The notes under the pieces are model-generated. The model saw nothing but the letters and a program-made list of their open reading frames with translations. It was not told where the DNA came from and did no database searches. Source: Acidimicrobiia bacterium (GTDB taxonomy: Bacteria; Actinomycetota; Acidimicrobiia; Acidimicrobiales; Bin134). Taken from it: a stretch of 64,000 nt of DNA. The position numbers and the translations under genes were made by a program. Where the stretch lies: contig JAJECA010000025.1 of assembly GCA_022822265.1 (NCBI GenBank), positions 1 through 64,000 of the forward strand. The letters are read 5' to 3'. Numbering within the stretch: position 1 is the first letter of the stretch; each line of letters starts with the position of its first letter. This document shows, piece after piece, positions 61,367 to 63,050 of the stretch.

Positions 61367-62083
61367 GTGATTGAGGATCGGCTGTACTTCAGACAGCTTT
61401 TGTCGGGGCGGGACTTGGCGGTTGGGGACATGATGGCCCGGCAGATGGTGAACTTCGTCTATCTGATCGGGGATCGGGAGACGGGGGAAGCGGTGGTGGT
61501 GGACCCGGCTTATGACCCGCAGGGGATCGTGGATCTAGTTGAGGCCGATGGGATGCGGCTGACGGGGGTGTTGGCCACCCACTACCACGCCGATCATGTG
61601 GGCGGGTCGATAATGCAGTTCTCCATCACGGGGGTGGCCGAGCTGTTGGAGCTGGTGTCGGTTCCAGTGCACGTGCAGGCCGATGAGGCCCGCTTCGTCA
61701 CCATGACAACGGGCATCGGGGAAGACGATCTGTGCCTGCACCACAGCGGCGATGTGCTGTCGGTGGGGGAGGTGGACATCGAGATGATCCACACGCCGGG
61801 CCACACTCCCGGAAGCCAGTGCTTTTTGACCAACGGGCGTTTGGTGGCCGGCGACACGCTGTTCTTGGAGGGGTGCGGGAGGACCGATCTGCCGGGAAGC
61901 GATCCAGCGGCAATGTATGAGAGCCTCACCCAGCGCCTGGCCCGAGTTCCCGACAGTGCGACTCTGTATCCCGGGCATCTGTACTCGCCCCAGCCGTCGG
62001 CGTCGATGGGCGAAACCCGCCAAACCAACTACGTGTTCATGCCCCGCTCGGCCGAGCAGTGGATGGCGATGTTCGGCGGGTGA
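61367..62083 (+). CDS. Metallo-beta-lactamase-fold hydrolase (glyoxalase II/persulfide dioxygenase-like)
   Basis: The product has 238 residues from GTG 61367. The metal motif is ATHYHADHVGG (T-H-x-H-x-D-H, about residues 69-79), then MIHTPGHTPGSQCF, LVAGDTLFLEGCGRTDLPG and LYPGHLYS supply the further His and Asp ligands. The GRTDLPG segment resembles persulfide dioxygenase/ETHE1-type and rhodanese-linked MBL proteins. It ends in an overlap with the CMD-like gene, which is followed by the AhpD-like selenoprotein gene, hinting at a common thiol or peroxide related role (inference). Confidence 0.88.
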   Translation: MIEDRLYFRQLLSGRDLAVGDMMARQMVNFVYLIGDRETGEAVVVDPAYDPQGIVDLVEADGMRLTGVLATHYHADHVGGSIMQFSITGVAELLELVSVPVHVQADEARFVTMTTGIGEDDLCLHHSGDVLSVGEVDIEMIHTPGHTPGSQCFLTNGRLVAGDTLFLEGCGRTDLPGSDPAAMYESLTQRLARVPDSATLYPGHLYSPQPSASMGETRQTNYVFMPRSAEQWMAMFGG

Positions 62084-62457
62084 TGGGAATGAGCTCAACT
62101 TCCACCGACAATCCCCTGGCCGCCTTGGACTCCCATGTGGCTGGCCCGCTGGAGGAGTTGGTGCAGGCCCTCGATGGCGTGGGGCTGGATCGCGGATTGT
62201 TGGAACTTTGCGCTGCCCGCATCGAGCAGATGATCGGCGGTGGGGCGTCGGCCGCTTCTCCCCAAGACGACCGAGAGAGGGTCGTGCTGGCGTTCACCGA
62301 GCAATACGTGCTGGACGCCCACGGGGTGACCGATGAGCTGTGCGCCGAGTTGAATGCCCATCTGTCGCCGCCGGAGCTGTCCGCGCTCACCACGGCCATA
62401 GCCACGTTCGAAGCCCTGGCTCGCAGCCGGGCAGTGTTGAAAGGAGTCATGGAATGA
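62083..62457 (+). CDS. CMD/AhpD-like helical protein without CxxC motif
   Basis: The product has about 124 residues. Starts at GTG 62080 or ATG 62083 or 62089 are all possible. The helical pattern LEELVQALDGVGLDRGLLELCAARIEQMIGG, then QDDRERVVLAFTEQYVLDAHGVTDEL and LSALTTAIATFEALARSRAVL, follows the carboxymuconolactone decarboxylase/AhpD fold, but the redox pair after the first helices is missing. It overlaps the next gene as ATGA. I read it as a degenerate paralogue and probable partner subunit of that gene product; the assignment is tentative. Confidence 0.6.
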   Translation: MGMSSTSTDNPLAALDSHVAGPLEELVQALDGVGLDRGLLELCAARIEQMIGGGASAASPQDDRERVVLAFTEQYVLDAHGVTDELCAELNAHLSPPELSALTTAIATFEALARSRAVLKGVME

Positions 62458-62957
62458 CCAGGATCGCCATCCCCGAAGGTGGAATGTCGCTCTTCGACCA
62501 CCAGCCCGAGCTGTTCGCGGTGTTCAACCGGTTCTACGGCACGCTGTGGAGCGAAGGGCAGTTGGACCAGGCCACCAAGGAGGTGGGCCGGCTCCGCAAC
62601 GCCAGGGTCAACGACTGCAACATTTGAAAGAACCTCCGCTTCGCAGGTGCGAAGCAGCAGGGGCTCACCGAAGATCTGGTGGAGCAGATACAGGATGGCT
62701 ACGGCGACAGCGATCTGCCCGATCGATTGAAGCTGGCCTTGCGAATGGCCGATGCGGTGATCTCCGACCCGTCAGGGCTGAGCGAGGCTGATCAGACGGC
62801 TCTGCGGGAGGAGTTCACCTCGGCCGAGTTGGCTGAACTGGCATTGACAGTGGCAATGGCTGCCGGATTCTCCAAAGCGGCCATCGCTTGGGGCCCGCCC
62901 CCGGTCATCCCCGTTACCGAAGTGCCCACCCCCACCCCCGATGGAACGGTGGGCTGA
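62454..62957 (+). CDS. AhpD-like selenoprotein with in-frame TGA read as selenocysteine (Cys-x-x-Sec)
   Basis: The frame starts at ATG 62454 (overlapping the previous stop as ATGA) and runs 168 codons to TGA 62955-62957, with one internal TGA at 62625-62627 (codon 58). Upstream of it reads EVGRLRNARVNDCNI and downstream KNLRFAGAKQQGL; in the CMD/AhpD family this place is RNARVxxCxxCKNLRFAG, so the TGA sits exactly at the second redox Cys. A perfect 7-bp hairpin with AGGT loop begins 10 nt after the TGA. Downstream sequence is fully coding-like in the same frame (family helices LKLALRMADAV and LTSAELAELAL-type). The product would be a 167-residue thiol/selenol oxidoreductase of the peroxidase-reducing AhpD type. 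A plain nonsense mutation is the alternative, but it does not explain the hairpin. Confidence 0.88.
62638..62655 (+). promoter_or_regulatory. Candidate bacterial SECIS element
   Basis: GCTTCGC (62638-62644), loop AGGT (62645-62648) and GCGAAGC (62649-62655) form a perfect stem. It begins 10 nt after the TGA; the classic E. coli fdhF element begins 11 nt after its UGA and has loop AGGUCU. SelB would bind this loop to insert selenocysteine. Both position and the AGGU loop fit. Confidence 0.85.
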
Positions 62958-62966
62958 GTTGAACGG

Positions 62967-63050
<84 letters not shown>

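Follow-up and report, generated by a model that had tools for sequence, protein, structure and literature searches.

Why does a reading frame of the AhpD/CMD family carry a stop triplet at the very codon where the second cysteine of its CxxC motif would be expected, and can such a frame still specify a whole protein? The frame lies in the first 64,000 nucleotides of contig C52 (hereafter the window) of an Acidimicrobiia genome of 3.48 Mb in 64 contigs, which we label G000; throughout, G numbers designate genomes and L numbers loci. Judging from the sequence, positions 62454-62957 very probably encode an AhpD/CMD-family selenoprotein of bacterial type, in which the internal TGA is predicted to specify selenocysteine (Sec). 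The elements of the gene are the following.

62440-62446, forward strand: Shine-Dalgarno-like AAAGGAG, spotted by eye
62454-62957, forward strand: predicted AhpD/CMD-type selenoprotein gene, 167 amino acids, final stop TGA at 62955-62957
62616-62618, forward strand: codon of Cys55, the proposed resolving cysteine, invariant in the 12 rows of our alignment A1
62625-62627, forward strand: predicted Sec codon TGA (U58 of CxxU), the only in-frame interruption
62638-62655, forward strand: bSECIS-like hairpin, with a 7-bp stem (62638-62644 paired with 62649-62655) and the loop AGGU (62645-62648)

The translation of this frame reads C55-N-I-TGA58 at the interruption. An earlier note on this DNA had proposed that TGA 62625 is the sole interruption of a CMD/AhpD frame and that it falls on the second Cys of CxxC, and both claims hold, with 167 residues and a single internal TGA. 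The window protein matches PF02627 (CMD) with 40.4 bits, above the curated cut-off of 23, and when the window was scanned for in-frame TGAs with suitable codon bias and coding-like sequence on both sides, TGA 62625 ranked first of the four that passed the thresholds. We also considered whether the downstream half is a gene of its own, with GTG 62679 as its start, and rejected this, since both halves form one uninterrupted protein in Frankia. Standard gene callers would probably truncate such a frame, as the earlier note had expected.

The hairpin begins 10 nt past the TGA, and the perfect 7-bp stem and AGGT loop that had been described at this distance are indeed there. When the region 62625-62672 is folded, a check that the earlier note had suggested, the hairpin forms part of the minimum free energy (MFE) structure (-18.2 kcal/mol, z -1.88), a signal that is modest by itself given that 5 of 200 shuffled sequences fold equally well. 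Its rarity in the window is more telling: among the 1798 TGA trinucleotides on both strands, only five have a perfect stem of 7 bp, closed by a 4-nt loop, that starts 8-14 nt downstream, and the hairpin after TGA 62625 is the only one of the five with GG in its loop. The hexamer GCAGGT, moreover, has the same offset from the TGA, 18, here and in E. coli fdhF. Across homologues, the AGGU hairpin is part of the MFE fold in 17 of 20 Sec rows, and the 7-bp stem is unbroken in 16 of them (14 genus rows together with L065 and L070). L070 has changed both sides of one pair, from C-G to U-A. A U-C stem mismatch is common to L064, L066, L067 and L068; L068 keeps the hairpin with this one mismatch, and the other three fold otherwise. 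In the row from Frankia, which encodes Cys at this position, a different hairpin is found, with the loop CGA and without GG.

Patterns of substitution bear on both the frame and the hairpin. In 13 genus rows, without L060, which a contig end cuts short, the dN/dS ratio is 0.069 ahead of the TGA (codons 2-57) and 0.082 beyond the hairpin (codons 69-167), and the low value past the TGA means that the downstream part is translated. In the same rows dS is 0.48 and 0.67 in these two segments, versus 0.07 in codons 59-68. Counting instead the comparisons in codons 59-68 where the amino acid is kept, now over 14 rows, 39 of 910 differ (4.3%), and the two ten-codon bins that overlap the hairpin (51-60 and 61-70) show 10.9% and 8.9% synonymous differences, versus 17-43% in the other 13 bins. 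This drop in synonymous change, which runs across the hairpin, implies that its nucleotides are constrained beyond the encoded protein, and it makes the locus a clean example of a SECIS made visible as a local fall in synonymous substitution.

A selenoprotein gene calls for the machinery to read it, and the earlier note's claim that this genome uses selenocysteine is borne out by tRNA-Sec, selA, selB and selD, each over its cut-off. Our tRNA-Sec, selB and selD models, used at low stringency, match all 14 control genomes, and therefore only scores over the cut-off were taken into account. The tRNA-Sec scores 67.5 bits (cut-off 47, with eight weaker matches below it) and is called tRNA-SeC by ARAGORN; selA scores 405.1 bits, over its curated cut-off; selB, which starts 15 bases past the selA match, scores 273.8, and selD 356.1. 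The selD frame (L018, contig C11, 115856-116800) has an in-frame TGA of its own, in HGAG-TGA-AGKLG, and its product, the selenophosphate synthetase, probably contains Sec too (HGAG-U-AGKLG). The same note had supposed that Sec is uncommon in this group, a view that does not survive at the level of the order: selA is present in 32 of the 41 genomes searched there, namely in 21 of the 22 genomes of the genus, our own included, and in 11 of the 19 from other families.

Homologues of the gene follow a consistent pattern. Among these 41 genomes, our own and 14 of its 21 same-genus relatives have the frame complete or almost so, interrupted by a single TGA. A further relative, G015, retains only residues 88-167, and the search gave no orthologue in the remaining six (G004, G009, G010, G016, G020 and G021), of which G009 is 68% and G010 84% complete, and G020 has a contig break within the upstream paralogue described below. 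Named genomes provided 21 loci. In line with the reading that had been proposed for codon 58, 19 of them have TGA at the motif, one (L063, Frankia nepalensis) has Cys in the motif CKIC, and one (L069, on the same contig as the G015 locus) is a deletion remnant that has lost the motif. The named loci from the genus largely repeat the same-genus relatives, so that independent support comes from L064-L068, L070 and G152, all with TGA, and from L063 with Cys; the six named TGA homologues beyond the genus (L064-L068 and L070) are 54-61% identical to the window protein. In a sample of 396 genomes from the phylum, 17 including our own have a match at E<=1e-15, and the only close homologue beyond our own is in G152 (E 3.9e-45, one TGA), a complete genome from another family of the order; the next best match in any genome of the sample is at E 2.3e-23. 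As to habitat, the relative bin134 (L057) comes from the sponge Aplysina aerophoba, and homologues also occur in Frankia and in the metagenome-assembled genome K_Offshore_80m.

Other CMD-family frames with a TGA were seen along the way. Our genome holds a second, distant one (L095, contig C41, match at 117796-118050) with one TGA in C-V-V-U, and similar frames with one TGA occur in many same-genus relatives. G152 holds a further CMD frame with the motif C-H-T-U (L097, contig C1, match at 204958-205341).

Frankia nepalensis provides a natural control, as it carries the Cys form and no Sec machinery was found in its genome. There is no selA match, and neither selB nor selD exceeds its cut-off (best scores 203.9 versus 242.25, and 69.9 versus 125). 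Its best tRNA-Sec match, at 47.3 bits, is just over the cut-off of 47 and is called tRNA-Ser by ARAGORN; six weaker matches have no ARAGORN call. We compared nine genomes in this respect, those of L063-L068 and L070 plus G014 and G152. ARAGORN calls a tRNA-SeC in seven of the nine and selA is over the cut-off in six, and all eight with a Sec-type gene have at least one of the two. Partial cases are G014 (a Sec-type gene and tRNA-SeC, without a selA match), G435 (tRNA-SeC plus a fragmentary selA match, 77 bits) and G436 (selA pieces, with a best tRNA-Sec match that is a tRNA-Ser). In a tree of 22 rows, the Frankia Cys row pairs with L065 (support 82/84) inside a 13-row clade (93/99), a weak fork that hints at a change from Sec to Cys in Frankia. 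L077 and L079 yielded no usable segment for this tree, which also leaves aside 9 of the 20 loci from the phylum sample, among them those of our own genome and of G152, the close homologue of the latter being taken from L096.

How else could this frame be explained? If an ordinary AhpD gene with CxxC had suffered a nonsense mutation or been misread in sequencing, its frame would equally be interrupted by a stop codon, and decay does occur at this locus, as seen in the true remnant in G015. Yet the same TGA, with no other internal stop, is found in 13 of 13 genus rows and recurs at the motif in the six distant named homologues, the Sec machinery is in the genome, and selection has kept dN/dS at 0.08 downstream; on the conserved TGA and this last ratio we reject a pseudogene, which we find scarcely conceivable. 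Alternatively, UGA58 could be read as a residue other than Sec, be it because the code is reassigned or by simple read-through. The frame continues past the TGA without a break, and most of the homologous genes compared here also end in TGA, so that context must discriminate. Such a reading has to contend, however, with a genome that encodes tRNA-Sec, selA, selB and selD, with a GG-loop hairpin at the spacing of fdhF, with suppressed synonymous change, and with the Cys found in Frankia, the genome in which no such machinery turned up. The machinery and the silent constraint at the hairpin lead us to reject a general change of code, and we consider a non-Sec residue at this position very improbable. 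We thus return to the selenoprotein, and infer that SelB and Sec-tRNA would read UGA58 with the aid of the hairpin at 62638-62655, inserting Sec in place of the second Cys of CxxC.

The gene does not stand alone. Two further genes precede it in a tight run.

61367-62083, forward strand: MBL-fold hydrolase, first of the tight three-gene run (PF00753, 67.8 bits)
62083-62457, forward strand (start at 62083 or 62089): CMD-fold paralogue without CxxC, recognized by hhalign and Foldseek

The stop of the paralogue overlaps the start of the selenoprotein gene (ATGA), and its own start, if placed at 62083, forms a TGATG overlap with the MBL-fold stop. The paralogue sequence alone gives no Pfam match. 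Its relationship emerges from comparison of profiles, that of the paralogue (11 homologues) aligning with that of the selenoprotein in hhalign at 96.4% and E 1.1e-9; among the 11, two reach a Pfam CMD match, the better at E 2.2e-12. The AlphaFold model of the paralogue has a pLDDT of 88.4 and finds PA0269/AhpD as its best Foldseek matches (E 5.2e-4). Its Cys41 is invariant and located away from the position of the missing CxxC, so that the chain need not be inactive. The paralogue sits directly upstream of the selenoprotein in 19 of the 21 named loci, the two others being L070, where it is 2.6 kb away, and L069, which is cut; in G152 it is likewise just upstream. The MBL-fold gene stands beside the pair in the genus only (L050-L062 and L069), the upstream DNA of L066 being too short to tell, and LarB, LarC and PP2C are likewise found with it nowhere outside the genus. 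A tRNA-Leu gene (anticodon cag, minus strand, 62965-63050) separates the selenoprotein gene from PP2C. In G021 (L093) and G004 (L094) the MBL and PP2C genes are present but both members of the pair are absent from the space between them, and in G015 (L092) one stretch is gone, beginning near residue 18 of the paralogue and reaching residue 88 of the selenoprotein.

This arrangement makes the paralogue a candidate structural partner of the selenoprotein. Since proteins of the AhpD-like kind assemble into trimers to hexamers, the CxxC-less relative might do so with the selenoprotein, which we regard as a real possibility on somewhat less than even terms. Going further, one can tentatively picture a two-subunit selenoenzyme, in which an AhpD-fold chain with Sec would be obligately paired with a translationally coupled, motif-less paralogue in a hetero-oligomer with a dedicated substrate. 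In the same tentative vein, the pair would be kept and lost as one unit, with the Cys form found in Frankia. With the CxxC-less paralogue next door, the idea of a hetero-oligomeric selenoenzyme can be put to the test.

What might the enzyme do? Modelled by AlphaFold with Cys in place of Sec, the selenoprotein has a pLDDT of 85.1 and a pTM of 0.82, and its best PDB match is PA0269 (2ijc_F; E 5.4e-5, TM 0.70/0.80), other AhpD-like proteins being found too. AhpD of Mycobacterium tuberculosis, whose chain topology differs (PMC3141380), matches the model only insignificantly, at E 1.3 and higher. In the alignment, Glu43, Cys55 and Sec58 line up with Glu36, Cys48 and Cys51 of PA0269, and the position of Sec58 is also that of Cys133 of M. 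tuberculosis AhpD; Cys51 and Cys133 are each described as one of the two cysteines to which peroxidase activity is ascribed (PMC3141380). The proton relay residues Tyr50 and His55 of PA0269 have their places taken by Ile57 and Arg62. Of the five residues that characterize the relay of the AhpD peroxidase subgroup (Glu, Cys, His, Cys and His, with Tyr for the first His in PA0269), three are thus present here, and peroxidase activity through the known relay is not assured because of these two replacements. We do not regard Arg62 as a special feature, since Arg is found in all nine CxxC relatives of the tree, for which the selection pattern required His or Arg. Selenols are present largely as selenolates at neutral pH, and the loss of the relay His may therefore matter less. 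In the chemistry that we somewhat favour, Sec58 would attack a hydroperoxide or a disulfide, Cys55 would resolve the resulting selenenylsulfide, and a cellular thiol system would then re-reduce the enzyme.

Instead of being a peroxidase, the same selenoprotein could act as a thiol-disulfide adaptor or in the manner of a reductive dehalogenase, an alternative that concerns its chemistry only and is compatible with its identity. The debrominase Bmp8 (6ohi, 6ohj) has the same fold and is among the Foldseek matches (E 0.04-0.06), the relay His has given way to Arg62, and sponges, the source of at least one relative (bin134), are rich in bromo-organics. However, homologues occur in Frankia and K_Offshore_80m as well, and the closer structural matches are AhpD-like, one of them, PA0269, with a measured weak peroxidase activity (PMC3141380). 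We therefore hold this alternative to be unlikely, though not negligible, and keep attack by Sec58 as the working chemistry.

Comparison with known systems places the protein more precisely. At the level of RNA, E. coli fdhF shares GCAGGT at an equal distance from its UGA, although it encodes an unrelated protein and has another stem sequence. At the level of structure, PA0269 (2ijc, 2o4d) and Atu0492 (2gmy) share the fold (TM 0.69-0.71 by query length), the Glu and both redox positions, but have CxxC where our protein has CxxU, and PA0269 has Tyr50 and His55 in place of our Ile57 and Arg62. PA0269 is reported to form hexamers, and its peroxidase activity is thiol-dependent (PMC3141380). The window protein is under every NCBIfam cut-off, with 31.9 of the 81.8 bits of TIGR01926 and 31.8 of the 310 of NF053654. 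The latter, the "YciW-related (seleno)protein", is its second-best NCBIfam match and is matched by 9 of the 12 rows of A1 at E<=0.001, but with a score so far under the cut-off our protein is no member of that equivalog.

Selenoproteins of this kind have been predicted before, as the earlier note had correctly stated with regard to metagenomic surveys. Table 2 of an ocean survey lists 299 "AhpD-like 1" (COG2128) and 70 "AhpD-like 2" (pfam02627) sequences with CxxU (PMC2398784), AhpD-like selenoproteins are named in two other papers (PMC1088965; PMC1794560), and CxxU forms appear in reviews of 2022 (PMC9312934) and 2026 (PMC13188914). Some of the published metagenome sequences may already belong to the present subfamily. 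SelA and SelB are reported to occur together in most sponge symbiont bins, across various phyla (PMC5649159), and our gene is one candidate for what this machinery serves there. Like the CxxU AhpD-like proteins described in these sources, ours belongs to the CMD/AhpD family, with Sec predicted at the second position of CxxC and a predicted bacterial SECIS downstream. Unlike those sets as they are presented there, it is now placed in genomes of Acidimicrobiales, together with the Sec machinery and beside a paralogue without CxxC.
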